Positions 8,870-32,351 of a stretch of 36,283 nucleotides of DNA are shown piece by piece; position 1 is the first letter of the stretch, and each line of letters starts with the position of its first letter. The translations under genes were made by a program, and so were the position numbers. The stretch covers positions 198,740 to 235,022 of the forward strand of contig NZ_CH672420.1 in NCBI RefSeq assembly GCF_000152905.1, read 5' to 3'. The notes below the pieces were generated by a model. It searched no databases, was not told the origin of the DNA, and worked only from the letters and a program-made list of their open reading frames with translations. This DNA comes from Nitrobacter sp. Nb-311A. Its GTDB lineage: Bacteria; Pseudomonadota; Alphaproteobacteria; Rhizobiales; Xanthobacteraceae.

Positions 8870-10306
8870 TCAGAACAATGATTTCGCAGCCGCCGTGGCG
8901 GCGCTGACCAGAGGTCCGGGATACGCGAAGAACAGCATGTTGAAAAGCGCGGTCGCGGCCACTATCGAACGTAATTCGAGATGAACGGCGTCTGTCGCCT
9001 CGGCGCGCTCGTCAAAATACATCACCTTGATGACGTTGAGATAGTAGAATGCACCGACCACGCTGGTGATGACGCCGATCACCGACAGCGCAAACAGCCC
9101 GGCCTTGATGGCGGCGCTGAAGACATAGAACTTGGCGAAGAATCCGGCCAGCGGCGGAATGCCGGCCAGCGAAAACAGCAGCATGGCAAAGAAAAACGCC
9201 AGCAGCGGATTGGTCCGCGACAACCCCGCGAAATCACTGATCTGCTCCAGCGCCTGACCGTTACGGCTCATGGCGAGGATGACCGTGAAAGCCCCGAACG
9301 TCATCACGGTATAGATGACCAGATACAGCACCACGCCCTGCGCGCCCTCGACCGTGCCGGCGGCGAGACCGACCAGCGCAAAGCCCATGTGGCCGATCGA
9401 CGAATAGGCCATCAGCCGCTTGATGTTGCGCTGCCCGATCGCGCCGAAGGAGCCCAGCGCCATGGACGCGATCGCCACGAAAACCACGATCTGCTGCCAT
9501 TCGGCGACAACCCCGGAGAATGCCGTCAGCACCACGCGGGTGAACACCGCCATCGCCGCGATCTTCGGCGCCGAGGCGAAGAAAGCCGTGACCGGCGTCG
9601 GCGCGCCCTCATAGACATCGGGCGTCCACATATGGAACGGCACCACCGACACCTTGAAACAAAGGCCGGCCAGCAGAAAGACGATACCGAAGACGACGCC
9701 GATGCTGCCGCTCTTCGCGGCGGCCGCAATGCCGGCGAAGCTGACGGTTCCCGTGAAGCCATAGATCAGTGAAGCGCCGTACAGCAACATCCCCGACGCC
9801 AGCGCGCCAAGGACGAAATATTTCAAGCCCGCCTCGGTCGACTTCACATTGTCGCGGTTGCTCGCCGCCACCACGTAAAGCGCAAGGCTCATCAATTCGA
9901 GCCCGAGATACAGCATGATCAGGTCGGCCGCCGAAATCAGCACCATCATGCCGACAGTCGAAAGCATCACCAGAATCGCGAACTCGAACATCCGGCGGGA
10001 TTGGTCCTCAAGGAATTCCCGGGACAGAACGAGCGTTGCCGCGGACCCGAGCAAGGCAAGTATTTTCAGAAACCGGGCGAACTCATCGACGATGAAGCTG
10101 CCGCCGAAGGTAGTCAGCCTGCCACCCGGCAACAGATATTCAATCACGCCGGTCCCGATCAGAGCGCAGATAGCGAGGCCGGTCACGAGACCTGCTGCAC
10201 GCTGACCACACCATGCCCCGATCAAAAGCAACACCATCGCGGCAATCGCGAGCACGATCTCCGGCAAGACAGGAAGAAGTTGATATCCGGCGGCCTCAAC
10301 CATCAT
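8870..10306 (-). CDS. nuoN: NADH-quinone oxidoreductase subunit N
   Basis: A membrane proton-pumping subunit of complex I, related to Mrp antiporters. The 478-residue protein has about 14 hydrophobic helices. The antiporter-family signatures are visible: VPFHMWTPDVYEGAPTPVTAF in the middle, preceded by a lysine-bearing helix (LCFKVSVV), and the NIKRLMAYSSIGHMGF segment. The start could be either of two adjacent ATGs at 10306 and 10303. It follows nuoM by 25 bp and ends 13 bp before birA. The last complex I gene of the operon. Confidence 0.97.
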   Translation of the reverse strand: MMVEAAGYQLLPVLPEIVLAIAAMVLLLIGAWCGQRAAGLVTGLAICALIGTGVIEYLLPGGRLTTFGGSFIVDEFARFLKILALLGSAATLVLSREFLEDQSRRMFEFAILVMLSTVGMMVLISAADLIMLYLGLELMSLALYVVAASNRDNVKSTEAGLKYFVLGALASGMLLYGASLIYGFTGTVSFAGIAAAAKSGSIGVVFGIVFLLAGLCFKVSVVPFHMWTPDVYEGAPTPVTAFFASAPKIAAMAVFTRVVLTAFSGVVAEWQQIVVFVAIASMALGSFGAIGQRNIKRLMAYSSIGHMGFALVGLAAGTVEGAQGVVLYLVIYTVMTFGAFTVILAMSRNGQALEQISDFAGLSRTNPLLAFFFAMLLFSLAGIPPLAGFFAKFYVFSAAIKAGLFALSVIGVITSVVGAFYYLNVIKVMYFDERAEATDAVHLELRSIVAATALFNMLFFAYPGPLVSAATAAAKSLF

Positions 10307-10331
10307 AGCTCGTGTCCCTGACCTGCCGCGA

Positions 10332-11840
10332 TCATGGCAGCGCCGCCGCCTTGATGGCGGCGGTCGCGCTTGCGTAATTATTGACGAGATTTTGTACGGA
10401 AGCTGCCGAGAAATCGAGCACCGGCTTCGGATAAACGCCGAACAGAACCGTCAGCACCACAAGCGGCGCCAGCGTCAAACCCTCGCGGAACGTCAGATCC
10501 TTGATGGTCGCAAGCGACGGTTTGACCAGCGCACCGAACACGATCTTGCGATAGAGCCATAAGGCGTAAGCGGCTGACAGGATCACGCCGAGCGTTGCTG
10601 CTACCGCCGTAGGTATGCTGACCTTGAAGGTTCCGATCAGGGAGAGGAATTCTCCGACAAATCCGGAGGTTCCGGGCAGCCCGACATTGGCCATCGTGAA
10701 GACGAGAAACACCAACGCATAAAGCGGCATCCGATTGACAAGCCCGCCATAGGCCGCGATCTCGCGCGTATGCATTCGGTCGTAAACGACACCGACACAG
10801 AGAAACAACGCGCCCGACACGATTCCGTGCGACACCATCTGAAATACACCGCCGTGGATGCCCTGCATGGTACCGGCAAAGATTCCCATGGTCACGAAGC
10901 CCATGTGAGCCACCGACGAATAGGCGATCAGCTTCTTCATGTCCTCCTGCATCAGAGCCACAAGCGACGTGTAGACGATCGCCACGGCGGACAGCACGAA
11001 GACCAACGGTGCGAAGTCATGCGACGCAAGCGGAAACATCGGCAGCGAAAATCGGAGGAAGCCGTACCCTCCCATCTTGAGCAGGATCGCCGCGAGAATC
11101 ACCGAGCCCGCTGTCGGCGCCTCGACATGCGCATCCGGAAGCCAGGTGTGCACGGGCCACATCGGCATCTTGACCGCGAACGATGCAAAGAAGGCGAGCC
11201 ACGCCCACTTCTGCAAATTGTACGGGACAGCGGTTTGCATCAGCGTCGGGATGTCGGTGGTGCCGGCATTCCAGTAGAGCGCCATGATGGCCAGCAGCAT
11301 CAGAACAGAGCCGAGCAGCGTATAGAGAAAGAACTTGAAGGTCGCATAGACGCGGCGCGGTCCACCCCAGATCCCGATGATCAGGAACATCGGGATAAGG
11401 CCGCCTTCAAAGAACACATAGAACAGCAGCAGATCGAGCGCTGAGAAGGTGCCTATCATCAACGTTTCCAAAATCAGAAACGCCATCATGTAGGCGGGCA
11501 CGCGACGGGCAATCGATTTCCAGCTCGCGACGATACATAGCGGCATCAGCGCCGTGGTGAGAATGACGAACGGCAGCGAAATGCCATCAACGCCCATGTG
11601 ATAGCGAATGCCGGTAGCAAGCCAAGTCGCCTGCTCGACAAACTGGAATCCTGTATTGGCCGGATCGAAGCGATCAACCAGGATCAGCGACACCGCAAGG
11701 GTGACGATCGTGGTCCACAGCGCAATCCAACGCGCGGTTCTGTTGGCGGCTTCGTCGCCGCCGCGAGCCATCACGTAAATCAAAACCGCGCCGACCGCCG
11801 GCAGAAAGGTCGTGACAGACAGAATAGGCCAGGTCGTCAT
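10332..11840 (-). CDS. nuoM: NADH-quinone oxidoreductase subunit M
   Basis: An antiporter-like proton-pumping subunit of complex I in the inner membrane, 502 residues with about 14 helices. Conserved features include a glutamate in the [15 protein letters not shown] helix (the NuoM key Glu), a lysine in [20 protein letters not shown], the [18 protein letters not shown] loop and [15 protein letters not shown]. The start codon is two bases from the nuoL stop, so translation is likely coupled. Confidence 0.97.
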
Positions 11841-11842
11841 TC

Positions 11843-13909
11843 TTACTGGCCTCCCGAGAACATGAACCAGGTAATCAGCCCAGCGACACCCATCAGCATC
11901 GCGAACGCATAGTGATAAAGGTAGCCGGTTTGCAGCCTGACGACGTTGCGGGTGACATCGAGCACGCCGGCAGAGACGCCATCGGGACCAAATCCGTCAA
12001 TAACGAATCCGTCGCCCTTCTTCCACAAGAAGCGGCCAAGCCACTTCGCCGGACGCACGAAGATCACCTCATAAAGCTCGTCGAAATACCACTTATTGAG
12101 CAGAAACTGGTAAAGCATCGGGTGCTCGCGGGCGAGTTGGACCGGCACGTCGGGCCGCCGGATATAGAACAGCCATGCCACCGCAAACCCCAAAATCATC
12201 ATCGCCGTCGGCAGGAAGGCGATCGTCTTTGGAATGTGGTGCATTTCCTCAAGAATGTGCGGATGCATCTTCACGGATTCCCGGAAGAACTCTTCGACCC
12301 CGTGCCCGGTGAACAATTCCTTGAATGGAAAGCCCGCGAGGATCGAGCCGGCTGCTAGGATTCCGATCGGAATCAGCATCCAGGTCGGGCTTTCATGCGC
12401 AGCCTTATAGTGCGCCTGGTCGTGCGGCTTGCCGTGGAAAGTCTTGAAGATCAGCCGCCACGAATAGAAAGATGTCAGACCGGCGGCGGCCACGGTCATG
12501 AAGAAACCGTAGTATGCGAACGGATTGTGCGACACGTAGGCGGATTCGATGATCGCGTCCTTCGAAAAATATCCGGCGGTCAGCGGAAATCCCGTCAGCG
12601 CCAGCGTGCCGATCACCATAACGAAGTATGTATAGGGAATGCGATCCTTCAAGCCGCCCATATTGCGGATATCCTGCTCGTGATGCATCGCATAGATCAC
12701 CGATCCCGAGCCAAGGAACAGCAGCGCTTTGAAGAAGGCGTGTGTGAACAGGTGGAACATTCCGACGGTGTAGGCCCCTGCTCCCATTGCCACGAACATG
12801 TAGCCGAGCTGTGAGCAGGTCGAGTACGCCACGATGCGCTTGATGTCGTTCTGCACGAGACCGACCGTCGCCGCGAAGATCGCCGTCGTCGCGCCGATGA
12901 ACATCACGAAAGCCTGCGCGTCCGGAGACAGTTCAAACAACGGCGACAGCCGCGCCACCATGAACACGCCGGCCGTCACCATGGTCGCCGCATGGATCAG
13001 CGCCGACACCGGCGTCGGACCTTCCATCGCGTCGGGCAGCCAGGTGTGCAGCAGGAACTGAGCCGACTTGCCCATCGCGCCCATGAACAGCAGCAGGCAG
13101 ATCAACGTCAGGGCGTCGACGTCCCAGGCGAGGAAGTGGATCGTCTTTCCGGTCAGGCCCGTCGCCGCCGCGAAGATGGTATCGAAATCAGTGGAGCCGA
13201 CCAGCATGAACACCGCGAAAATGCCGAGCGAAAAGCCGAAGTCGCCGACGCGGTTGACCACGAACGCCTTGATCGCCGCCGCATTAGCCGATGGCTTCTG
13301 ATACCAGAATCCGATCAGCAGATAGCTTGCAAGGCCGACGCCCTCCCAGCCGAAGAACAGTTGGACCAGGTTGTCCGACGTTACCAGCATCAGCATCGCG
13401 AAGGTGAATAGCGACAGATAGCCGAAGAACCGCGGACGGTTGGGATCCTCGTCCATGTAGCCGATGGAATAGAAGTGCACCAGCGACGACACGGTAGTGA
13501 CGACCACCAGCATCACGGCCGTCAGCGTATCGACCCGCAACGACCAACCGACCTGAAGATCACCGGAGGAAATCCACGAGAAAAGCGCGATGCGTGCGTC
13601 GTGATGCATGAAGCCAACATCGATCAGCGTCATCCATGACAGGACCGCCGACACGATCAGCAGGGTCGTCGTGATCAGCTCAGCGGCACGCGAGCCCATC
13701 GCCGGCGGTTCGCTGACATGATGATCGTCGTGACCATGGGCGTCACCGTGCCCGTGTTCATCATGCGCAGCCGCCGCGTGAGCATGACCGTGATCATCGT
13801 GATGATCGACCGTATCACCGCTGGGATTACGCCAATGCGCGCCCACCAACGCAATCAGCGCGGCCAGAATCGCGCCGATCAGCGGCAAGAAGACGATTGC
13901 CTCGATCAT
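11843..13909 (-). CDS. nuoL: NADH-quinone oxidoreductase subunit L with His-rich loop
   Basis: The distal antiporter-like proton pump of complex I, with the long lateral helix at its C-terminus. From the ATG at 13909 (protein [13 protein letters not shown]) it is 688 residues. An upstream in-frame start at 13948 is less likely because it adds 13 polar residues and lies in a repeat. Core signatures are [51 protein letters not shown] (about residues 275-305) and [19 protein letters not shown]. Between the first and second hydrophobic segments is an unusual histidine/aspartate-rich stretch, residues 36-64, with 12 histidines in 29 residues. It probably faces the periplasm or cytoplasm as a loop. 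The gene sits between nuoK, across a repeat, and nuoM. Confidence 0.97.
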
Positions 13910-13922
13910 GCAGCTACCCCAT

Positions 13923-13994
13923 GGAGCATGATCCCGCAGCCAATGCATCCATTGGCCGGAGAAAGCCGGTCCTCACCTTTCCGGATCATGCTTC
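13923..13994. repeat. Palindromic repeat between nuoK and nuoL
   Basis: Outer arms GAGCATGATCC (13924-13934) and GGATCATGCTTC (13983-13994) are near-perfect inverted copies. An inner CCAATG...CATTGG palindrome lies around 13939-13954. The element fills the 83-bp gap between the nuoK stop and nuoL start, the only sizeable gap within the operon. I recognise the GAGCATGATC type as another dispersed hairpin element of Bradyrhizobiaceae. Confidence 0.75.
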
Positions 13995-14301
13995 AGCCCT
14001 TCATCAGATTGACGTCCTCAACCGCGATCGAACCGCGGTTGCGGAAATACACAACAAGAACAGCAAGACCGATCGCCGCCTCAGCCGCGGCGACCGTGAG
14101 CACCAGCAGCGTAAATACCTGTCCGACGATGTCGCCCAGGAACGCCGAAAAAGCCACCAGGTTGATATTGACCGCCAGCAGGATCAATTCCACCGACATC
14201 AGGATGACGATGATATTCTTGCGGTTGAGAAAGATGCCGAGCGTCCCCAGCGTGAACAGGATCGCGCCAACCGCCAGGTAGTGTCCGAGGCCGATCGTCA
14301 T
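13993..14301 (-). CDS. nuoK: NADH-quinone oxidoreductase subunit K
   Basis: A small three-helix membrane subunit of complex I, homologous to MrpC/ND4L. From the ATG at 14301 ([19 protein letters not shown]) it is 102 residues, the usual length. A GTG nine bases upstream is less likely because the ATG overlaps the nuoJ stop as ATGA. Conserved glutamates sit within helices 2 and 3 ([13 protein letters not shown] and [13 protein letters not shown]), as expected for the proton path. Confidence 0.97.
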
Positions 14302-14933
14302 TTCACCCACTCCGCCTGGTCGGCGTCCTGCAATCCTTGCCCCGAAGCGACCTGGCGAACGCTCATGGCCATCTCGGGAGTCCGGGCGTTCTGGACATTG
14401 ATATCCTGACGCTTGACACTGACCCTGTGTCGGAGCGTCAGCACAATGGCGCCGATCATGGCCACCAGCAGCACCATGCCGGCGAGCTGGAAATAATGAA
14501 TGTACTTCGTGTAGAGCACGAGACCGAGCGCCTCGGTGTTGCTGACGTCGCCCGGAATAGCCGCAGTGATCGATTTTGTAACCGTCGGATTAAGGGTCCA
14601 GCCCCCGACAACGAGCAGCAACTCCAGCAGAAAGATCGCCGCGATCACCAGACCGAACGGCAAGTATTCGAGAAAACCCTCGCGTAGTTCGGCGAAGTCG
14701 ACGTCGAGCATCATGATCACGAAGAGGAACAACACCGCGACCGCGCCGACATAGACCACGATGAGGATCATCGCGAGGAATTCCGCGCCCAGCAGAATGA
14801 ACAGACCGGCGGCGTTGACGAACGCCAGAATGAGAAACAGCACCGAGTGCACCGGATTGCGCGACGAGATGACCATCACGGCCGATGCAACGCACACGCC
14901 GGCGAACAGATAGAAGAACGCGGGAAGGATCAT
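14298..14933 (-). CDS. nuoJ: NADH-quinone oxidoreductase subunit J
   Basis: A five-helix membrane subunit of complex I (ND6 homologue), 211 residues. The N-terminus [31 protein letters not shown] and the [18 protein letters not shown] helix, with its conserved pi-bulge region, are typical. The C-terminal tail of about 45 residues is polar and less conserved. It begins 9 bp after nuoI ends and overlaps nuoK by four bases. Confidence 0.97.
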
Positions 14934-14942
14934 GCCCCTACC

Positions 14943-15431
14943 TCACCGATACGGCGCGTCGAGTTCGATCGCCTTTGCGATCTCGCGCTCCCAACGGTCG
15001 CCATTGGCGAGCAGCTTGTCCTTGTCATAATAAAGCTCCTCGCGGGTCTCGGTCGCGAATTCGAAGTTCGGCCCCTCAACGATGGCATCGACCGGACAAG
15101 CCTCCTGGCATAATCCGCAATAGATGCACTTCACCATGTCGATGTCGTACCGCACTGTGCGGCGGGTGCCGTCGTTGCGGCGCGGCCCGGCCTCGATGGT
15201 AATGGCCTGCGCAGGGCAAATCGCCTCGCACAGCTTGCAGGCGATGCAACGCTCCTCACCGTTCGGATAACGGCGCAACGCGTGTTCGCCGCGGAAACGC
15301 GGCGAAATCGGATTCTTCTCGAATGGGTAGTTGATCGTCGGTTTCGGTTTGAAAAAATACCGCATGGTGAGAAAGAACGCCGAGATGAACTCGGTCAGCA
15401 GGAGCGAACGGGCTGTTGCGTTGATACTCAT
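14943..15431 (-). CDS. nuoI: NADH-quinone oxidoreductase subunit I
   Basis: A peripheral subunit carrying clusters N6a and N6b in the electron-transfer arm of complex I. The 162-residue protein has two 4Fe-4S motifs: [12 protein letters not shown] (about residues 62-73) and [12 protein letters not shown] (about 101-112). The N-terminal amphipathic helix and the [14 protein letters not shown] segment that docks to the membrane arm are present. It sits 7 bp downstream of nuoH. Confidence 0.98.
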
Positions 15432-15438
15432 GACAACC

Positions 15439-16509
15439 TCAATTCGGCGCGATGCCAGCGAACTGCAATACGCCGGCCACGATCACCACCATCGCCAGCG
15501 ACAGCGGCAGGAACACCTTCCAGCCAAGCCGCATCAGTTGATCATAGCGGTAGCGCGGCACGATCGCCTTCGCCATCGCGAACAGGAAGAACATGAAGAA
15601 GAGTTTCAGCGAGAACCAGAAGACGCCGGGCACCCAGTTGAACGGCGGCAGGTCGACCGGCGGCAGCCAGCCGCCCATGAAAAGGATCGCGCCCATCGCG
15701 CACATGGTGGTTATCGCGACATACTCGCCGAGCATGAACAACAGATACGGCGTCGATCCGTACTCGACCATGAAGCCCGCGACGAGCTCGGATTCCGCCT
15801 CGACGAGATCGAACGGCGGACGATTGGTCTCAGCCAGGGCAGACACGTAAAACACCACGAACATCGGCAGAAGCGGCAGCCAGTACCAGTTCAGGAAGGT
15901 CAGCCACGGCAATCCGATCAGGCTGGCCAATCCGCGTGTATGTTGCGCCTCGACGATGGCGGAGAGGTTCAATGAGCCCGCGCAAAGCAAGACCGTGATG
16001 ATGACGAAACCGATCGACACCTCATAGGAGACCATCTGCGCCGCTGAACGCAACGCGGCGAGAAACGGATACTTCGAGTTCGACGCCCAGCCGCCCATGA
16101 TGATGCCGTAGATCGACAGCGACGAGATCGCGAAGATGTAGAGGATCCCGACATTGATGTCGGCGATGACCCAGTTCAGATTGACCGGGATCACCGCCCA
16201 CGCAGCCAGCGCCAGTACGCAGGAAACCAGCGGCGCCAGAAGGAACACGCCTTTGTTGGCGCCGGAAGGAATAATCGGCTCCTTCAGCACAAATTTCAGA
16301 AGGTCGGCGAACGACTGAAACAGGCCCCATGGTCCGACAACATTGGGACCTCGCCGGATCTGCACCGCAGCCCAGATTTTCCGGTCGGCGAGCAGAATGT
16401 AAGCGATCGCGATCAGCAGAACGACAAGCAGCAGCAAGCTCTGCGCCACCATCACGATCAGGGGCCAGAGGAAGTCCGTCCACAACGGCATTGCGAAGAA
16501 ATCGGCCAT
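15439..16509 (-). CDS. nuoH: NADH-quinone oxidoreductase subunit H
   Basis: The membrane subunit of complex I that forms the quinone-binding chamber with NuoB and NuoD, 356 residues with about eight helices. Signatures are [22 protein letters not shown] (about residues 41-62), the [15 protein letters not shown] segment and [20 protein letters not shown], whose acidic residues line the E-channel. I prefer the ATG at 16509 ([16 protein letters not shown]), six bases after the nuoG stop, over an ATG at 16560 that would lie inside nuoG. Confidence 0.97.
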
Positions 16510-16514
16510 CACGC

Positions 16515-18593
16515 TTACTCCGCTGCCGTCAGCATGCGACCCGACGCGAGCCGCGAGCATTCGGCCATCACAGCCGAGGCCCGCGCGATCGGGTTAGTCA
16601 GATAATAGTCGTCAATCGCAGCCTTGAACGGCGACTTCTCGATGCCGCCGCCCCTGCCGGCCAGATCCTTGATCGCGCGGCTATCGCCAGCCTCGATCTG
16701 GTCGATCCGCATCAGATGCGGCACTGTCTTGAACATCGCCTGCCGCAGTGCGGCCAGCGAGTCATAACCCAGGGTTGCGCCCAGCGTTTCGGAAAGCGCG
16801 CGAATGATCGCCCAGTCCTCGCGCGCCTCACCCGGCGGGAAGCTCGCCCGGTTCGTCATCTGGACCCGGCCTTCCGTGTTGACATAGATGCCGGTTTTTT
16901 CGGTATAGGCCGCGCCGGGCAAAATAACGTCCGCGCGGTGAGCGCCAGCATCGCCGTGGGTTCCGATATAAACGAGGAAAACGCCGTCCGGCACATTGAT
17001 CTCGTCTGCGCCGAGCGAAAACAGAACATCAAGCCCGTCCGGCGCCGTCATCCGCCCCGCGTTCAGGCCGCCCTTCCCCGGCGCGAAGCCGAGGTCCAGA
17101 GCGCCGACCCGCGACGCCGCATCATGAAGGACGGCAAACCCGTTCCAGCCGTCTTTTTTCAGCCCGCCAATATCAAGGGTGAGTTTGGCCGCCGCCGCAA
17201 GAATGGCCGCGCCGTCCGGCCGGGACGTTGCGCCCGCTCCGACCAGTACGATCGGATTGCTGGCATTCTTCAGCACGTCGCGGAACTTGTTCTTGCCCGC
17301 CGCGAGATCCGCAAGCGACTCCGGGCCGGCGCCGAGATAATCATACTCGTAGGTCAGGTCGGCTTTCTCTCCGATCACGCCGATCATGAGCTGACCCGTC
17401 CGCCAGCGCTTGCGAATGCGCGCGTTGAGGATCGCCGCTTCCTTGCGCGGGTTGGATCCCACGATCAGCAGCGCGTCGGCCTGCTCGATGCCCGCGATAG
17501 TCGGGTTGAAGATGTAGGACGCCCGCCCCCGCGCGGGACTGAAGGCATCGCCTCCCTGCACCGCGATGTTGACCGATCCGAGTTTCGACAGCAGGTCCTT
17601 AAGCGCGAATAATTCCTCGACGGCGGCAAGATCGCCGGCGATCGCGCCGATCCGCTTGCTATCGGCGCCCTTCACCTTCGCCGCGATCGCGGCGAACGCT
17701 TCAGGCCACGAAGCGGGGCGCAACGCGCCGTTTTCCCGAATGTAGGGGCGATCGAGCCGCTGAGTGCGGAGCCCGTCGACGATGTGGCGGGTTTTGTCCG
17801 AGATCCACTCCTCGTTCACGGCGCCGTTGAAGCGCGGCAGGATGCGCATCACCTCGCGTCCACGCGTATCGACACGGATGGCCGAGCCAACAGCATCCAT
17901 GACGTCGATGGATTGAGTCTTTCCGAGTTCCCAGGGCCGCGCGGCGAATGCATAGGGTTTCGACGTCAACGCGCCGACCGGACAGATATCAACGAGGTTG
18001 CCTTGCAATTCCGATGTGAGCGCACTTTCGAGATAAGTCGTGATCTCCATGTCCTCGCCGCGGCCAATAGCGCCCATTTCCGGCGCGCCGCATATTTCGG
18101 CGGAGAAGCGGACGCAACGCGTGCACTGGATGCAGCGGTTCATCGAGGTCTTGACCAGCGCTCCGAGATACTTGTCCTCGACCGCACGTTTGTTCTCGGC
18201 GAAGCGGGACGTATCGACGCCGTACCCCATCGCCTGATCCTGCAGATCGCACTCGCCGCCCTGATCGCAGATCGGGCAATCAAGCGGATGGTTGATCAGC
18301 AGGAATTCCATCACGCCTTCGCGCGCCTTCTTCACCATCGGCGAGCGCGTGGAGATCTGCGGCGGCTCCCCGTTTGGACCCGGACGGCAATCGCGCACGC
18401 CCCAGGCGCAACTCGCGACCGGCTTCGGACCGCCCTTCACCTCGACCAGGCACATCCGGCAGTTGCCGGCGATCGACAGCCGCTCATGATAACAGAAGCG
18501 CGGAATCTCGGCGCCCGCCGCTTCGCACGCCTGCAAGAGCGTATATTCTGCGGGCACGTCGATCTCTTTGCCGTCGATGATAAGCTTCGTCAT
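16515..18593 (-). CDS. nuoG: NADH-quinone oxidoreductase subunit G
   Basis: The large electron-transfer subunit of complex I, 692 residues. The N-terminal 2Fe-2S ferredoxin domain has C-x11-C-x2-C ([15 protein letters not shown]). A following His-Cys3 4Fe-4S site is [17 protein letters not shown], and next comes [16 protein letters not shown] with a downstream Cys near DICPVGAL. The C-terminal molybdopterin-oxidoreductase-like domain has lost its cofactor role, as in the mitochondrial 75-kDa subunit. The ATG at 18593 ([14 protein letters not shown]) begins the ferredoxin domain four bases after the nuoF stop. The upstream in-frame extension would lie inside nuoF and is not supported. Confidence 0.97.
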
Positions 18594-18597
18594 GGCC

Positions 18598-19923
18598 TTA
18601 CTCCGCCGCAACCATATGCGCGGGATCGAGGATGCCCTGATCGTCGCGGTCGGCCTTGTGCGAATACTGGTCGATGCGCGCCTCGATCTCATGCCGGAAA
18701 TGCGCGATCAGCCCCTGGATAGGCCACGCCGCCGCATCACCGAGCGCGCAGATGGTGTGGCCTTCGATCTGCTTTGTAACCTCGAGCAGCATGTCGATCT
18801 CGCGCTTGTGGGCACGGCCTTCGGCCATCCGGGTCAGCACCCGCCACATCCAGCCGGTGCCCTCGCGGCACGGCGTACACTGGCCGCAACTTTCGTGCTT
18901 GTAGAAATAGGAAATGCGCGCGATCGCCCGGATCAAGTCGGTCGACTTGTCCATGACGATGACGGCGGCTGTGCCAAGGCCGGAACGCAGCTTGCTCAGA
19001 CTGTCGAAATCCATCGGCGTATCGATGATCTGTTCGGCCGGCACCATGCGCACCGACGAGCCCCCCGGAATGACCGCCTTAAGATTATTCCAACCGCCGC
19101 GAATGCCGCCGCAATGGGTGTCGATCAACTCACGAAACGTGATCCCCATCGCCTCTTCGACATTGCAGGGACGCTCGACGTGGCCCGAAATGCAAAACAG
19201 CTTGGTGCCGACATTATTGGGACGGCCTATCGCGGCGAACCAGGCTGCGCCGCGTCGCAGGATGTCTGGCGCCACCGCGATGGACTCGACGTTATTCACC
19301 GTGGTCGGGCAACCGTAGAGACCGACATTGGCGGGGAATGGCGGCTTCAGCCGCGGCTGGCCTTTCTTGCCTTCCAGGCTTTCCAGCAGCGCTGTTTCCT
19401 CGCCGCAGATATACGCTCCCGCACCATGGGCGACGTACAGATCGAACGGGAAGCCGTGGATGTTGTCCTTGCCGATCAGCCTGGCCTCATAGGCCTCGTC
19501 GATGGCCGCCTGCAAGCGCTCTCGCTCGCGGATGAATTCGCCTCGTATGTAGATATAGCCGGCATGAGCGCCCATGCCGACGCCGGCCAGCAGGCAACCC
19601 TCGATCAACAGATGCGGATCGTGCCGCATGATCTCGCGGTCTTTGCAGGTCCCGGGCTCGGACTCGTCGGCGTTGACGACGAGATAGCTCGGTCGGCCGT
19701 CGGCATTGTCCTTCGGCATGAAGGACCATTTCATGCCGGTCGGAAATCCGGCCCCGCCACGGCCGCGCAAGCCAGAAGCCTTCATCTCGCTGACGATCCA
19801 GTCGCGGCCCTTGTCGACGATCGCCTTGGTGCCGTCCCATGCGCCACGGCGGCGCGCGCCGGCCAGCCGCCAGTCGTCGAGACCATAGAGATTTCGGAAG
19901 ATGCGATCCTTGTCGTCGAGCAT
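18598..19923 (-). CDS. nuoF: NADH-quinone oxidoreductase subunit F
   Basis: The NADH-oxidising, FMN-binding subunit of complex I with cluster N3, 441 residues. The NADH/FMN site is visible as [13 protein letters not shown] (about residues 54-66) and [20 protein letters not shown] (about 167-186). The N3 cysteines are in [15 protein letters not shown] (about 347-361), plus a later Cys in [12 protein letters not shown]. The ATG overlaps the nuoE stop (ATGA). Confidence 0.98.
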
Positions 19924-20678
19924 CAGGTTTTGCCCTTCTTGGTCGCGTCGTCGGCGGGCGGCTTCGGCACGGGACTTTCCCGCCGGCTTGCGGAGTCGGT
20001 CGGCTTCTTGGCGTCCGCATCCGTCAACGCCGGCTGCGCGCTTGCACGACGTCCGCCCTCGCCTTTCGCGGCCGCCGTATTCAACGTGGTCGGACCGCCG
20101 ACCGGCGCGGAAAACTGGCGGTCGATCTGGGGACCGGGCTTCGGCGGATTGCCGGAAGCGAACCCGTCCAGCACCTTGCCGAAGCTCTCCTTCGTCAGAT
20201 CCTCATAGGTATCCTTCCAGATCAGCACCATCGGCGCGTTGACGCAGGAACCGAGGCACTCGACCTCTTCCCATGAGAAATCGCCGTCCTTCGAAAGATG
20301 AAACGGCTCGTGGTGGATACGGCTTTTGCAGACCGCGAGGATGTCCTCAGCGCCCCGCAGCCGGCAAGGCGTGGTGCCGCAGACCTGGATGTGAGCCTTC
20401 TTGCCGACCGGCTGAAGCTGGAACATCGTATAAAACGTCGCGATCTCCAGCATCCGGATGTAGGGCATATCGAGCATGTCGGCCACGGCGCGGATCGCCG
20501 CCTCGGAGATCCAGCCGCCATGCTGCTCCTGCGCGCGCCACAAGATAGCGATGGCCGCGGACGCCTGGCGACCTTCCGGATATTGCGCGATCTGCTTTTT
20601 AGCCCATGCGAGGTTCTCCTCGCTGAAGGCGAAACTCTCGGGCTGCTGTTCTTTCGGTGCCAGGCGGCGAACGGACAT
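19923..20678 (-). CDS. nuoE: NADH-quinone oxidoreductase subunit E, long C-terminus
   Basis: A thioredoxin-fold subunit with the 2Fe-2S cluster N1a, 251 residues. The cluster cysteines lie in [15 protein letters not shown] and [12 protein letters not shown]. Beyond about residue 180 the protein continues for roughly 70 residues rich in Pro, Ala, Lys and Ser (for example SVP-type runs such as [20 protein letters not shown]). This tail is longer than in E. coli NuoE and looks disordered. The start ATG is 14 bp after the FkbM gene stop, the only interruption in an otherwise standard nuoD-E order. Confidence 0.97.
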
Positions 20679-20692
20679 CGTATTTTAGTCTC

Positions 20693-21658
20693 TCAATGAA
20701 CACGTTGCGACGCGGTCGCGTTCAGACGACGAAAACGATCTTGCCAGAATGCGCTCGAGGTTCCGAATACGTTGTATCCAACGTGGGAAGCGACCTTGAT
20801 GCGGTCCAGAATGGAGAGCTCGGTCAACGTCTCGAAACGGCCACTGGCCGGATCATGCACGATCAGATCTAGCGGCGTCTGCTCAAGAATATAGCGCGAT
20901 ACGGTGTGATTTCGGTCGTTGCCGTGCTCCTCGCAGAGGATGACGGCGTCGCCCTGCAGCACGCGGTCGCCGCCCTTGATGGCTTCAATCTCGACGCCTT
21001 CGACGTCAAGCTTGATGAGGTACTTGCCATCGGGGGAAATTCTGCCGTCGTCGAGCAGGTTGTCGAGCGAGAGCACCGGTACGCTCTCACCACCGGCATC
21101 GGCGCCGCCAGCGATGCTGAAAGCCTCATGCTTGGTGCCGGACAAACGCGCGATGCCGCGCGTCGCGCCGATCGCGCTCTGCACCGTCTCGAAGCGGTCG
21201 CCGTTGATCTTCGCGTTGTTTGAAAGCCTGGCGAAATTCTTCGATGACGGTTCGATCGCGATCGCTTTGCGCGACCCGAACGGCGCGCTGGTGACAAGCA
21301 CCGACCAGTAGCCGTAATTGGCGCCGCAATCGAGCAGCGTGTAGTCGACGTCGGCTGAGTTGCGAAACAGCAGCTCAAGCTCGTCCTCATACTTGAAAGA
21401 GCGATTAAGCAGCTTGCTCCAATAGCCGTCGCCATAGGGAAACGCGAACGTCGCGTCGGGATTGAGTTTGACGGCGATATCGCGCTCCGGCAACGTCTTG
21501 CGCAGCAGGTTGGCGCAACTGTTATAGCCGCGATGCGAAAATAGCGAGGACACTTTGGAGCCCGCCACCAGCGCCAGCGCAGCCGCGCGCTCCCAGGCAT
21601 TCGCGCCCTGAAGCACGCCGGAAGTTCGGTCAAACTGAATCGGCGGCTGCGCGATCAC
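20693..21658 (-). CDS. FkbM-family SAM-dependent methyltransferase within nuo operon
   Basis: A 321-residue protein recognised as an FkbM-type methyltransferase. SAM motif I is [13 protein letters not shown] (about residues 106-118), an acidic motif II-like [12 protein letters not shown] follows, and the family-typical [19 protein letters not shown] is near 207-225. FkbM enzymes usually methylate hydroxyl groups of sugars or polyketides. The substrate here is unknown. It starts with GTG at 21658, overlapping the nuoD stop in a GTGA arrangement, and ends 14 bp before nuoE. It is therefore embedded in, and probably co-translated with, the complex I operon. Its GC content looks like its neighbours, so it is not an obvious recent arrival. 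A role in complex I or quinone biology is inference only. Confidence 0.88.
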
Positions 21659-22863
21659 CGGTCAACCTCTCCGAACACGATATCGAGCGAGCCGAGAATG
21701 GCGGACACATCCGCCAGCAGGTGCCCCCTGCAGAGGAAATCCATCGCCTGCAGATGCGCAAAACCCGGCGCGCGGATCTTGCACTTGTAGGGCTTGTTGC
21801 TCCCGTCGGAGACGAGATAGACGCCGAACTCTCCCTTGGGCGCTTCCACGGCCGCATAGATCTCACCCGCCGGAACGTGGAAACCTTCGGTGTAGAGCTT
21901 GAAGTGGTGGATCAACGCTTCCATCGAGCGCTTCATCTCGCTGCGGCGGGGGGGAAAAATCTTGTTGTCCTCGACCGCCACCGGCCCCTGCCCGTCGGGA
22001 GCGCGCAGCTTGGCGATGCACTGCTTCATGATGCGAACCGACTGCCGCATCTCTTCCATGCGAATGAGATAGCGATCGTAGCAGTCGCCGTTCTTGCCGA
22101 TCGGAATGTCGAAATCCATTTCGGCGTAGCACTCGTAGGGCTGCGCCTTGCGCAAATCCCAGGCCGCTCCGGAGCCGCGAACCATGACTCCGGAGAAGCC
22201 CCATTCCCAGGCCTGTTTCAAAGTAACCACGCCGATATCGACGTTGCGCTGCTTGAAGATGCGGTTGGCGGTCAATAGCCTGTCGAGATCGGCGACAACC
22301 TGAAGGAACGGATCGCACCAGGCCTCGATATCATTGATCAGCTTTGGCGGCAGGTCCTGATGCACGCCGCCGATGCGGAAATACGCGGCATGCATCCGAG
22401 AGCCGGACGCGCGTTCGTAGAACATCATCAACTTCTCGCGCTCCTCGAAACCCCACAGCGGCGGGGTGAGCGCGCCGACGTCCATTGCCTGCGTTGTGAC
22501 ATTGAGAAGGTGAGAAAGTATGCGTCCGATCTCGCAATAGAGCACCCGGATCAGCTGGCCGCGCCGCGGCACCGCGATCCCCAGCAGTCTTTCGGCGGCG
22601 AGACAGAAGGCGTGCTCCTGATTCATCGGCGCGACATAATCGAGCCGATCGAAATACGGAATCGCCTGAAGATAGGTCTTTTGCTCGATCAGCTTTTCAG
22701 TGCCGCGATGAAGCAGGCCGATGTGCGGATCGACGCGCTCCACCACTTCGCCGTCCAACTCCAGCACCAGGCGCAATACGCCGTGCGCGGCCGGATGCTG
22801 CGGGCCGAAATTGATCGTGAAGTTACGCATACCGGGAGTTACGGCGCCAAGTGCTTCGTTCAT
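21655..22863 (-). CDS. nuoD: NADH-quinone oxidoreductase subunit D
   Basis: The 49-kDa type subunit of complex I forming the quinone site with NuoB, 402 residues. Typical features are [22 protein letters not shown] (about residues 18-39), [14 protein letters not shown], the [17 protein letters not shown] helix and the C-terminal DIVFGEVDR. The ATG overlaps the nuoC stop (ATGA). NuoC and NuoD are separate genes here, not fused as in E. coli. Confidence 0.98.
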
Positions 22864-23483
22864 CAGCTACCCGCCTTGCCGTCCATCGCCTTCTCATCAC
22901 CAGGCAGCGGATAGTCAGCGCCCTCCCAAGGTGACATGAAATCGAACTTGCGAAATTCCTGATTGAGACGCACCGGTTCGTACACGACCCGCTTCTCGGC
23001 ATCGTCGTAACGTACCTCCACGAAGCCCGTTAGCGGAAAATCCTTTCGCAGCGGATGTCCGTCGAAACCATAGTCAGTCAACAAACGCCGCATGTCGGGA
23101 TGACCGGTGAAGATCACGCCATAGAGGTCGTAAGCCTCCCGTTCAAACCAGTCCGCGCCAGGAAACACGTCGATCAACGAGGGCACCTGCGTGGTCTCGG
23201 AGGCGTACGCACGCAGGCGAATACGCGCGTTCAGCGCCGGGGACAGGAAATGATAGATCACATCAAAGCGCTTCTCGCGGCCGGGATAGTCGACCGCGGT
23301 CACGTCGATGATGTTGATGAAGCGACAGCGCTGGTCGTCGCGGATGAAGCGGGCGACCTCGACAATCTTCGCAGCCTCGACCGTCACGGTGAGTTGACCG
23401 AACGACATGGAATGTCCGGTGGCCGCGCCCGGAAGCGTGGCAACAATCATCTGGCCCAAGGCATCGAGCCTGCTCTCGTCCAT
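22863..23483 (-). CDS. nuoC: NADH-quinone oxidoreductase subunit C
   Basis: The 30-kDa type peripheral subunit of complex I, 206 residues, no cofactor. The family signature is in the C-terminal half: [44 protein letters not shown] (about residues 110-153). It starts 10 bp after nuoB ends and overlaps nuoD. Confidence 0.97.
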
Positions 23484-23493
23484 CCCTTAACCC

Positions 23494-24096
23494 TCAGCGT
23501 TCGATGGTTCCAACTCGCCGGATCTTCTTTTGCAGAAGCAGGATTCCGTAGAGAAGCGCCTCGGCCGTCGGCGGGCAGCCCGGCACGTAGACATCGACCG
23601 GCACGATGCGATCGCAACCCCGCACCACCGAATAGGAATAATGATAGTAGCCGCCGCCGTTGGCGCACGATCCCATCGAGATCACGTAACGCGGTTCCGG
23701 CATCTGGTCGTAAACCTTGCGCAGCGCGGGCGCCATCTTGTTGGTCAGCGTGCCGGCGACGATCATCACGTCCGACTGGCGCGGCGATGCGCGCGGCGCA
23801 AAACCAAAACGCTCGACGTCATAACGCGGCATCGACACCTGCATCATCTCGACCGCGCAGCAGGCCAGGCCGAAGGTCATCCACATCAGCGAACCGGTGC
23901 GCGCCCAGGTGATCAAGTCGTCGGCCGCGGCGACGAAGAATCCCTTGTCGGACAATTCGTGGTTGACCTCGAGAAAGTACGGATCGCCGGCGCCGACAGA
24001 CCGGCCTGTGCCGGGGTCCAGAATCGAGGTTCCCGCCGGACCCGAGACAGGGCTGCCGGTGTAAGCGGCCTTTGCCGTGGGAGAGTTCAATCCCAT
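23494..24096 (-). CDS. nuoB: NADH-quinone oxidoreductase subunit B
   Basis: Carries the terminal cluster N2 that passes electrons to quinone, 200 residues from the ATG at 24096 ([14 protein letters not shown]). Cluster cysteines are in [32 protein letters not shown] and [16 protein letters not shown]. The chosen ATG overlaps nuoA by 10 bases and has an AAGG-type ribosome site inside nuoA. An in-frame ATG at 24117 would add seven residues. The N-terminal 45 residues before [16 protein letters not shown] are variable and probably flexible. Confidence 0.96.
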
Positions 24097-24452
24097 TCGA
24101 GAGCGCCTTTCTTCCATTCATAGGCAAAACCGACCGTCAGCACTCCTAGAAACACGATCATCGACCAGAAGCCTGTCACGCCGAGCTTGCCGAACGTGAC
24201 CGCCCAGGGGAAGAGGAACGCCACTTCAAGGTCAAAAATGATGAAAAGAATAGCGACTAAATAAAACCGAACGTCAAACTTCATCCGGGCATCGTCGAAT
24301 GCGTTAAATCCGCACTCATAAGCGGAAAGCTTTTCAGGATCCGGCTGCTTGTATGCCACGACGAACGGAGCGATCAGGAGCACAGCGCCGATCACGGCCG
24401 CTATGCCGATAAACACCACAAGCGGAAGATAGTTCTGCAAAATGCCGCTCAT
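24087..24452 (-). CDS. nuoA: NADH-quinone oxidoreductase subunit A
   Basis: A three-helix membrane subunit of complex I (ND3 homologue), 121 residues and the first gene of the operon. The conserved loop [44 protein letters not shown] is present, with the Cys of the ND3-type loop. A purine-rich GAGGGGAA ribosome site precedes the ATG at 24452. Confidence 0.97.
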
Positions 24453-24964: not shown

Positions 24965-25276
24965 TCAGGCCGCGGAAAGCGTGGGAATGGCATCCAGTTC
25001 GGCGCCGATCTGTTTTTCGGCCTGCTCAAGATCATAAACGCGCTGCATGGCGAGCCAGATGCCAGGGCCGTTGCCGCACAGCTTGCCGATGCGAAGCGCC
25101 ATGGCGGCCGTAACAGGCTGCTTCTCGTCAAGAATGTCATAAAGCGTCTGCCGCGAGATGCCCAACAGCTTCGCGATTTCAGTCTTGGACCTTCCGAGTG
25201 CAGGAAGAACGTCCTCACGGAGAAGCTCCCCCGGGTGAGTAGCGGGGATGCCGCGCTTGATCGATCGCTTGGTCAT
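24965..25276 (-). CDS. higA: HigA-type antitoxin (XRE family), toxin partner decayed
   Basis: A 103-residue helix-turn-helix protein from the ATG at 25276 (MTKRSIKRGIPATHPGELL). The HigA signature HPGELLREDVLPAL (about residues 14-27) leads into the HTH KTEIAKLLGISRQTLYDILDEKQPVTA (about 32-58) and the NGPGIWLAMQRVYDLEQAE tail. HigA binds its own promoter and neutralises the HigB mRNA interferase. Upstream only a stub of the HigB reading frame remains, joined by the overlapping TGATG expected in a higBA operon. This copy is therefore an orphan antitoxin or a HigA-like regulator. Confidence 0.9.
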   Translation of the reverse strand: MTKRSIKRGIPATHPGELLREDVLPALGRSKTEIAKLLGISRQTLYDILDEKQPVTAAMALRIGKLCGNGPGIWLAMQRVYDLEQAEKQIGAELDAIPTLSAA

Positions 25277-25350
25277 CAGGGGTAATCCTCCAGGTCGATA
25301 TCGATGGACGTGGCGACGACGCCGGATGACATATCCCCGGTCACCGATTC
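25276..25350 (-). pseudogene. HigB toxin C-terminal remnant
   Basis: In the frame directly upstream of higA the minus strand reads ...VVATSIDIDLEDYP then TGA overlapping the higA ATG (TGATG). HigB toxins typically end in a (G)DAYxVDxEDYx-like tail. An in-frame stop at 25353-25351 closes the frame, so at most 24 codons survive. The rest of the toxin has been replaced by unrelated sequence holding a plus-strand reading frame. Only the short tail supports the call. Confidence 0.5.
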
Positions 25351-25858
25351 TCATAAGAAGGCCGCCAGACGACCTCCAATACCTGAGTCTTGGAAGACGG
25401 AGTTACCTCCTGTTCCGGATTATGTATCTCTGCCAGACGACGCGATCGGTACACCGATGGTAGAACTTTCAAATGGCGAGGTGGCGGTTGGGGGATGCGA
25501 TCGAGTGGACCCTGCAAAGCCCAGTCCCGGACGATGGCAAGATTTCCACAAGAGGGCCTGCGAGGGCACATTCGTTGAAATCAAGGATAAGCCAGGCCGG
25601 CTGTTGATGGTGCTACGGGCTCCAACGAGGGCACTTCGCGACCGCGGACGATTAGCTCCGTTAAGTGGGTCAGCAAATCTATTGATTATGGAAGATCGTG
25701 GAGCAAACCCTACGCACTTTGCGACGTTCTTGGCGATTGTTTATACAGCCCATCATCAATTTCCAACCTTATCTACGTCCCTAACTGCCGATTATACTGG
25801 ATTGGAAATATCATTTGATCTCGTCCTATCGGAAATCTACCACGTTACCCGCTCATGA
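25304..25858 (+). CDS. Hypothetical protein, unrecognised
   Basis: A 184-residue reading frame with protein-like composition but no family I recognise. It has proline-rich stretches near residues 24-50 (RRPPIPESWKTELPPVPDYV), a GRWQDFHKRACEGTFVEIKDKPGRLLMV region and no clear signal or membrane helix. The start is uncertain. The ATG at 25304 overlaps the HigB remnant on the other strand, and an ATG at 25456 is possible. It lies just upstream of the membrane protein at 26081 in a stretch less GC-rich than the nuo block, suggesting common acquisition. Confidence 0.45.
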   Translation: MDVATTPDDISPVTDSHKKAARRPPIPESWKTELPPVPDYVSLPDDAIGTPMVELSNGEVAVGGCDRVDPAKPSPGRWQDFHKRACEGTFVEIKDKPGRLLMVLRAPTRALRDRGRLAPLSGSANLLIMEDRGANPTHFATFLAIVYTAHHQFPTLSTSLTADYTGLEISFDLVLSEIYHVTRS

Positions 25859-31575: not shown

Positions 31576-32351
31576 CAGTTCACCTGCCTCTTGATCCACG
31601 CGCGCACGTTGCCCGGGCCCATGAAAAGCACGAACAGGATTACGATCAGCAACACGCCGCCAAACAGCACCGCGACCACCTGCCAGTCGGTCAGGTAGCC
31701 GAAGACGCCGAGTCCGGCGCCGCCAGAAAACCAGCCGGTGACGGCTTTCCACTTGCGGCGCAGCCACGAAGGTTTGGGCTCAGAGTCGATGTGCGTGTGG
31801 TCGCGGTCGGCGTGCAGGTCACTATCTGCGTCGGTCTCTGGCACGTCGAACAGTTTGACGGGTTTCACCCCCGGATACCCGCTGGCGTCGCAAAACTCGA
31901 AATGCATGGGATCGGTGCGACCGCGATAGTCGCCGCCCCACCTCGCACCCTGGCGCTTGAAGGCATTGATGACCGGCTGCGGCATGTTCCCGCGTCCCGC
32001 ACCGAGGCCGTTCTCCGCCGCATTCAGGTCGATCGCGGCGCCATAAGCATGGTTCGACCACTTGGTGGCGCTGCCACGCACCTTCCGAGGATTGTAGGTG
32101 CCGGCGTACTTCGAGATCCCGAGCGCGTCGATCCTGCGCTGATCGCGCCCGTAATACTCCCAGATTTCATCCAGCGCCGCCTTGAGAGCCCCGGCCGCCT
32201 TGCGGTGAAACCGGATGCGGCTAATCGGCTTGCCGTCGTAATACATCTGAAACGGCGGCACGACGTTGACGAGCTGGCGCTCGACGTCGGGTCCGGGCGT
32301 TCCGTAAAAGGCCAGAAGGTCAGCTTGATTGTCTCGCGGCCACTTGGTCAT
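31575..32351 (-). CDS. M15-family peptidase endolysin with C-terminal anchor
   Basis: A 258-residue peptidoglycan peptidase. The D-Ala-D-Ala carboxypeptidase-like M15 zinc site is visible: SNHAYGAAIDLN (H101, D108) and DPMHFEF (H151). The catalytic domain covers about residues 30-170. A hydrophilic His/Asp-rich linker (about 180-200, DADSDLHADRDHTHIDSEPK) follows, then a transmembrane helix near residues 223-245. Phage M15 endolysins are usually soluble, so the C-terminal membrane anchor is noteworthy. First gene of the minus-strand lysis cassette; a 163-bp gap separates it from higB. Confidence 0.85.
   Translation of the reverse strand: MTKWPRDNQADLLAFYGTPGPDVERQLVNVVPPFQMYYDGKPISRIRFHRKAAGALKAALDEIWEYYGRDQRRIDALGISKYAGTYNPRKVRGSATKWSNHAYGAAIDLNAAENGLGAGRGNMPQPVINAFKRQGARWGGDYRGRTDPMHFEFCDASGYPGVKPVKLFDVPETDADSDLHADRDHTHIDSEPKPSWLRRKWKAVTGWFSGGAGLGVFGYLTDWQVVAVLFGGVLLIVILFVLFMGPGNVRAWIKRQVN

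Follow-up and report, generated by a model that had tools for sequence, protein, structure and literature searches.

A putative FkbM-family methyltransferase gene embedded between nuoD and nuoE in Nitrobacter sp. Nb-311A and related bacteria

Operons for complex I are usually read as a series of Nuo subunit genes accompanied by lineage-specific unidentified frames. In the window analysed here, the whole stretch of 36,283 nucleotides from Nitrobacter sp. Nb-311A (contig NZ_CH672420.1, positions 198,740 to 235,022), one such frame between nuoD and nuoE appears to be a selected enzyme with recognisable motifs, namely a methyltransferase of the FkbM family that depends on S-adenosylmethionine (SAM). 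Methylation of complex I is known from mitochondria, where NDUFAF7 methylates Arg85 of NDUFS2, the counterpart of NuoD (PMC3829151), as a preliminary description of the locus had correctly stated, and alphaproteobacterial homologues of NDUFAF7 are thought to act likewise (PMC9006661). At stake is a second methylation step on bacterial complex I versus an enzyme of small-molecule or surface chemistry that is housed in a steadily expressed operon. We see about an even chance that the gene product is an O-methyltransferase for a glycan-type or other small envelope molecule, with nuo as its expression home, and not a modifier of complex I.

The gene and its predicted product

The nuo cluster occupies the minus strand from nuoA (24452) to nuoN (8870), and the methyltransferase gene is the sole non-nuo gene within it (nuoD and nuoE were named by family models, the remaining nuo genes were recognised from sequence):

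20693..21658, minus strand: FkbM-family SAM-dependent methyltransferase, 321 amino acids, GTG start (PF05050, TIGR01444, AlphaFold2 model)
21655..21658, minus strand: GTGA overlap of methyltransferase start and nuoD stop (sequence; equivalent start in 60 of 67 embedded loci)
21311..21331, minus strand: SAM-binding motif I DCGANYG, residues 110-116 (alignment A2, 24 rows)
20990..21013, minus strand: KLDVEGVE motif, residues 216-223 (the K-x-D-x-E-G-x-E of other FkbM proteins)
20906..20932, minus strand: subfamily-specific EEHGNDRNH motif, residues 243-251, with H245, D248 and H251 (alignment)
21655..22863, minus strand: nuoD (NF004739, 2.6e-190)
19923..20678, minus strand: nuoE (NF005724, 3.2e-121)
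20679..20692, minus strand: 14-bp spacer from methyltransferase stop to nuoE start (sequence)
8870..24452, minus strand: nuo gene cluster, nuoA to nuoN

The reading frame is intact, and positions 21658-21655 read GTGA, confirming the described overlap of its start with the nuoD stop by 4 bp; nuoE begins 14 bp past its own stop. The preliminary reading as an FkbM methyltransferase between nuoD and nuoE was borne out by the models for both neighbours (NF004739 with 632 bits, NF005724 with 404 bits) and by the matches of the window protein to PF05050 (54.2 bits, cut-off 22.7) and TIGR01444 fkbM_fam (70.8 bits, cut-off 37.7). Its resemblance to the neighbouring genes in composition held as well, since the guanine-plus-cytosine content (GC, 0.601), the GC content at third codon positions (GC3, 0.752) and the codon adaptation index relative to the other nuo genes (CAI, 0.657) all lie within the ranges spanned by the 14 nuo genes (0.516-0.638, 0.639-0.818 and 0.555-0.709, respectively).

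PF05050 was the only family in Pfam matched by the window protein at E ≤ 0.01, and PF02636, the NDUFAF7/MidA family, was not matched. The motif I residues D110, G112, A113, N114 and G116 are invariant in alignment A2 (24 rows), as is the KxDxEGxE hallmark. Motif I and the KxDxEGxE motif are common to all 12 generic FkbM proteins compared (12 of 13 loci tried), except for N114 (10/12) and D218 (11/12), whereas W80, Y90, W118, G128, H177, H245-D248-H251, K288 and W305 each occur in 0-4 of the 12 and characterise the subfamily. In particular, H245, D248 and H251 are kept in all 31 embedded and all 16 paralogue rows and found in one, four and none of the generic proteins, respectively. An AlphaFold2 model (predicted local distance difference score, pLDDT, 90.1; predicted template modelling score, pTM, 0.90) has the class I Rossmann methyltransferase fold. 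By its sequence and model, the gene is predicted to encode a complete methyltransferase of class I, with a Rossmann fold, that belongs to a separate subfamily of FkbM proteins. A profile of the subfamily found a single chain in the PDB at E ≤ 0.01, 2py6 (E 0.0027). The nearest folds to the model are catechol O-methyltransferases, with TrmR and a precorrin methyltransferase of class I scoring almost equally, and the structure comparison, run as a fold search of the model, did not discriminate between substrates. NDUFAF7/MidA was absent from the 50 rows listed, an absence that carries no weight.

Distribution, selection and history

Among 61 genomes, the own genome and 60 relatives, 45 have some match to the window protein (E ≤ 0.001), and in 19 the gene is embedded, that is, flanked by nuoD and nuoE: nine of the own genus (G000-G008, all of which keep the gene in place), eight others of the own family and two of other families. 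The gene is likewise present in each of the 14 genomes sampled from genus code g24. In a survey of the order, 31 of 397 genomes hold the subfamily (E ≤ 1e-30, all below 1e-86) and in 28 of these 31 it lies between nuoD and nuoE. For comparison, 383 of the 397 genomes gave a nuoD and 372 a nuoE. Embedded carriers fall into eight of the 52 family codes of the order sample (f1, f11, f16, f22, f25, f28, f35 and f41), which rules out a strain-specific insertion; restriction to this strain, the case that the preliminary description had set against its own proposal, did not occur. The loci from genome_contigs comprise 67 embedded in nuo and 13 outside, the best 80 of at least 303 confirmed relatives; the embedded gene is carried by Bradyrhizobium, Tardiphaga, Afipia and Rhodopseudomonas, among others. 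In the f16 genomes G216 and G392 (loci L156 and L157), additional sequence lies between the methyltransferase gene and nuoE, which in L156 includes an XRE-like helix-turn-helix (HTH) frame (by eye). The metagenome-assembled genome (MAG) G370, counted as a carrier, has two nuoD genes, one of them without the methyltransferase gene (possible contamination). The class sample added relatives from outside the order in 3 of its 336 other genomes; one is a contig-end fragment, and no nuoD or nuoE was present in the short flanks fetched for these three. The phylum sample (200 genomes, including many of this order) gave six matches, all from this order. Open-access literature searches returned no report of a methyltransferase between nuoD and nuoE; the placement is genuine and, as far as these searches show, unreported.

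The gene is under purifying selection. Against five congeners (L002-L006), its ratio of nonsynonymous to synonymous substitutions (dN/dS) is 0.058-0.098, which resembles that of nuoE (0.056-0.099; nuoD, 0.017-0.043), and such low values argue that it is kept by selection. A possible start codon with the 4-bp overlap with the nuoD stop exists in 60 of the 67 embedded loci, and a median of 11 bp separates the gene from nuoE, which makes translation together with the operon likely. Of the proposal that it is translated in step with NuoD, the overlap is thus confirmed and the coupling itself likely.

The history of the placement was read from a tree of 50 rows, made up of 48 of the 119 distinct subfamily proteins and two outgroups (thinning of the embedded proteins at 90% left 67, and 19 more were removed by hand). 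On this tree, the nuo position needs five changes, at least four of them forced by well-supported branches, and copies outside nuo nest among embedded ones. Support is weak at the deepest forks between embedded copies, and a long-branch warning concerned L166, L021, L165, L160, L020 and others; without four long or outgroup rows, five changes were again obtained. A single clade of all embedded copies was rejected by the approximately unbiased (AU) test (30 versus 16 rows). The tree favours one old insertion in nuo followed by four departures to other operons, because repeated, independent insertion would cost at least two further changes, as counted on the printed tree. In 25 carriers, identities of the methyltransferase correlate with those of NuoD plus NuoE (Mantel r 0.80, reached in 0 of 2000 permutations), as they do in the 11 rows outside f1 (near-copies included; r 0.69, 0 of 2000). 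Within the 216 cross-family pairs alone, rank correlation was absent (-0.09), so the signal there appears to be saturated. No sign of recent transfer between families was seen among the 25 carriers, in which no cross-family pair exceeds 58% identity; the window protein and that of L103, a locus with no family assignment, are among the highest cross-family identities. On a tree of NuoD plus NuoE with the 25 carriers and 58 chosen non-carriers, presence of the gene changes 11 times, nine of them forced, which may reflect either many losses or old transfers, the two not being told apart.

The non-carriers were 60 genomes chosen from the 366 without a match, 58 of which had both nuoD and nuoE. Their nuoD-nuoE gap is at most 30 bp in 31 genomes, 31-200 bp in 12 and more than 200 bp in 15, and several of the long gaps encode a recurring small secreted protein. 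The survey of nuoD-nuoE content across the order thus found the gene in 28 of 397 genomes and other passengers in some non-carriers. The junction is, to judge from these sequences, an insertion-tolerant slot, and any argument from position alone is weakened accordingly. The small secreted protein has about 85-120 amino acids, a signal-peptide-like start, an L-x-x-x-G/A-Y/F-type motif and a Cys pair. It occurs at L017 (after the methyltransferase gene), L179, L180, L195, L211 and L155 and spans at least five family codes (f1, f16, f20, f24 and f28); pairwise similarity is weak to clear, with E-values that relate to the set of six, and the one member searched against Pfam gave no match. Junctions fetched separately hold Uma2-like frames (G084, G099) and a PhnA-like frame plus a membrane protein (G290), all named by eye; the non-carrier loci with Uma2- and PhnA-type passengers are L149, L151 and L152.

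Copies outside nuo and the possible role of the enzyme

The genome of strain Nb-311A has six PF05050 matches in total, including a second copy that is 52% identical and lies among transposase-like frames (by eye). Paralogues L032, L102, L104 and L105 have an ATP-grasp-like gene directly 3' or overlapping (recognised by eye at L105 and by weak PF15632/PF02786 matches at the other three), and the L032-type paralogue and its ligase-like neighbour appear as a two-gene unit. Paralogues L112-L116, L118 and L161 adjoin multicopper oxidase, TolC-like, DUF305 or OpgC genes, not each gene at every locus (oxidase, DUF305 and OpgC of L114 by Pfam, the rest by eye). Four plasmid records hold a copy, and the three that were read in annotation, from Afipia, Bradyrhizobium and Rhodopseudomonas, are all conjugative:

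L241, L242, L243: plasmid paralogues in NC_015685.1, CP069301.1 and NZ_CP133114.1

Each of the three copies lies inside a copper-resistance operon; all three operons include OpgC, two have copC/copD, and two encode a GNAT protein with a match to Acetyltransf_6/FemAB. The association of acyl- and methyltransferases of the envelope with plasmid-borne copper resistance is a puzzle in its own right. Genes for glycan metabolism were seen beside distant relatives only, the embedded copies being without them. L165 (35% identical locally) adjoins a family 4 glycosyltransferase gene, and L035, which is 30% identical to the window protein in alignment A1 and 34% by tblastn, lies in an exopolysaccharide-type cluster, in which the one neighbour tested is an epimerase and the others were named by eye. 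L158 (f24) has sugar-epimerase-like genes about 1.7 kb on, which were not seen at L159 from the other f24 genome (both by eye).

On balance, the sequence comparisons speak more for O-methylation of a small molecule or envelope glycan than for modification of complex I. The enzyme would use SAM to methylate a hydroxyl group on a small molecule, and an envelope sugar or glycan, or a precursor of one, is the most likely acceptor. The nuo operon would provide steady, respiration-matched and NuoD-coupled synthesis, and complex I would be left unmodified. The preliminary description had mentioned a gene for cell-surface sugars as the dull alternative, which gains from the neighbours of distant relatives and of the plasmid paralogues, although none of the relatives considered has a proven substrate. 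Several observations weigh against an envelope substrate. The nuo position looks ancestral in the clade and long kept, beyond the need of simple hitch-hiking, and embedded copies have nuo genes instead of glycan genes on both flanks. The plasmid operons serve copper resistance, the ATP-grasp partner has no assigned substrate, no subfamily member has a demonstrated one, and for most copies the adjoining genes were identified by eye. Decoration of periplasmic glucans linked to OpgC was considered as a general role and rejected: OpgC was present in 19 of 19 embedded carriers versus 24 of 42 genomes without an embedded copy in a first set, and co-occurrence failed in a second set, with 6 of 9 further embedded carriers versus 24 of 31 genomes without (22 of the 29 that lack the subfamily and both of those whose copy lies outside nuo). 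As OpgC is missing in three of those nine carriers (G216, G392 and G102, 93-98% complete), such decoration would not be a general role and the failure counts against the envelope reading as well.

The preliminary description had considered a dedicated partner of complex I. As such, the enzyme would methylate a side chain of NuoD, NuoE or another Nuo subunit during assembly, co-translationally with NuoD, which we regard as rather unlikely. The part of this proposal that concerns the position stood, as the placement is old, cross-family and overlapping and the gene is under purifying selection similar to that on nuoE. The overlap in 60 of 67 loci, the linkage to nuo in 28 of the 31 subfamily genomes among the 397 examined and the precedent of NDUFAF7 acting on NDUFS2 (PMC3829151) all speak for it. 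The modifier role itself found no support. A PF02636 gene is present at a separate site in the own genome (G000:C10) and encoded in 61 of 61 genomes, carriers and non-carriers alike, so the FkbM gene does not replace NDUFAF7/MidA and this candidate explanation is excluded. Linkage to complex I is not exclusive, with 13 copies outside nuo among the best 80 of at least 303 relatives and further copies in plasmid copper operons, and copies in unrelated operons, those of the copper type and those beside ATP-grasp genes, keep the same signature residues. Moreover, the subfamily is missing from 366 of the 397 order genomes, yet 383 gave a nuoD. Among the columns of NuoD and NuoE, none combines invariance in the 25 carriers with conservation below 80% in the 58 non-carriers, in a test restricted to these two proteins, with nine independent pairs and little power, to which an invariant target would be invisible. 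At NuoD position 360, Lys stands in 14 of the 25 carriers and Arg in all 58 non-carriers, a difference for which the paired test cannot reach significance.

Alternatively, the enzyme would methylate a small quinone-like, lipid or hopanoid-type compound in the respiratory membrane and so match membrane composition to complex I synthesis, which is in our view improbable. Co-expression with nuo, deduced from operon position, and the nearest folds, enzymes that methylate ring hydroxyls of catechols, are compatible with it, and the OpgC of the paralogues has a further match to a broad acyltransferase family, for which lipids are conceivable substrates. However, fold likeness indicates no substrate, TrmR and the precorrin methyltransferase being nearly as close, and no lipid or quinone biosynthesis gene was recognised by eye beside the copies examined, most neighbours of which were not searched. 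Similarly low is the probability of a pure hitch-hiker, for which the junction would merely tolerate insertions and the placement would mean nothing beyond transcription. The 15 non-carriers whose junction exceeds 200 bp, in some of which it encodes a small secreted protein, the Uma2- and PhnA-like passengers and the 11 presence changes fit this explanation, which is at odds with the low dN/dS, the kept start overlap, the occupation of the same slot by copies down to 32% identity and the presence of the gene in place in all nine genomes of the genus. The most far-reaching scenario, in which a Hyphomicrobiales FkbM enzyme, translated in step with NuoD, would methylate a subunit of complex I, or else the quinones or lipids around it, as a second methylation independent of NDUFAF7 and was later copied into copper-resistance operons, is a long shot as well; if it were true, the copper-operon copies might shield or adjust that same target, in the envelope or the respiratory machinery, during copper stress.

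Two carriers, G205 and G303, have second, solitary nuoD copies (L244 and L245, 85-89% identical to the window nuoD), beside which neither nuoE nor the methyltransferase gene occurs in the fetched stretch. Upstream of nuoA, the window encodes an antitoxin-like protein with weak matches to HTH families in Pfam (24965-25354, minus strand) and, at 31578-32351 on the same strand, a protein of the Peptidase_M15_4 family, a combination that suggests a mobile or phage remnant.

Comparison with known systems

The unidentified reading frames (URFs) of the Paracoccus nuo operon are likewise non-Nuo genes in a nuo operon, at other positions and of other families. With NDUFAF7/MidA, the enzyme shares SAM dependence and a link to complex I, but the two belong to different families (PF02636 versus PF05050), and it is NDUFAF7 that is proven to act on complex I. 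With the FkbM family, whose solved member is 2py6, it shares scores above the curated cut-offs, the DxGANxG and KxDxEGxE motifs and the class I fold. It differs from generic FkbM proteins in its own subfamily residues and its location, 28 of 34 matches in the order sample being in nuo. Copies in copper-type operons on chromosomes or in MAGs keep the subfamily signature residues. The copies on Nitrobacteraceae plasmids (pOC167, pBAL398.3 and CP069301) are 45-47% identical over 94-96% of the length, and two of the three read overlap the next gene by 4 bp. Instead of Nuo subunits, they are accompanied by OpgC, by copper proteins and, on two of the three plasmids, by acyltransferases of the GNAT/FemAB type. 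The conjugative copper-resistance plasmids offer a second, testable setting for this enzyme.
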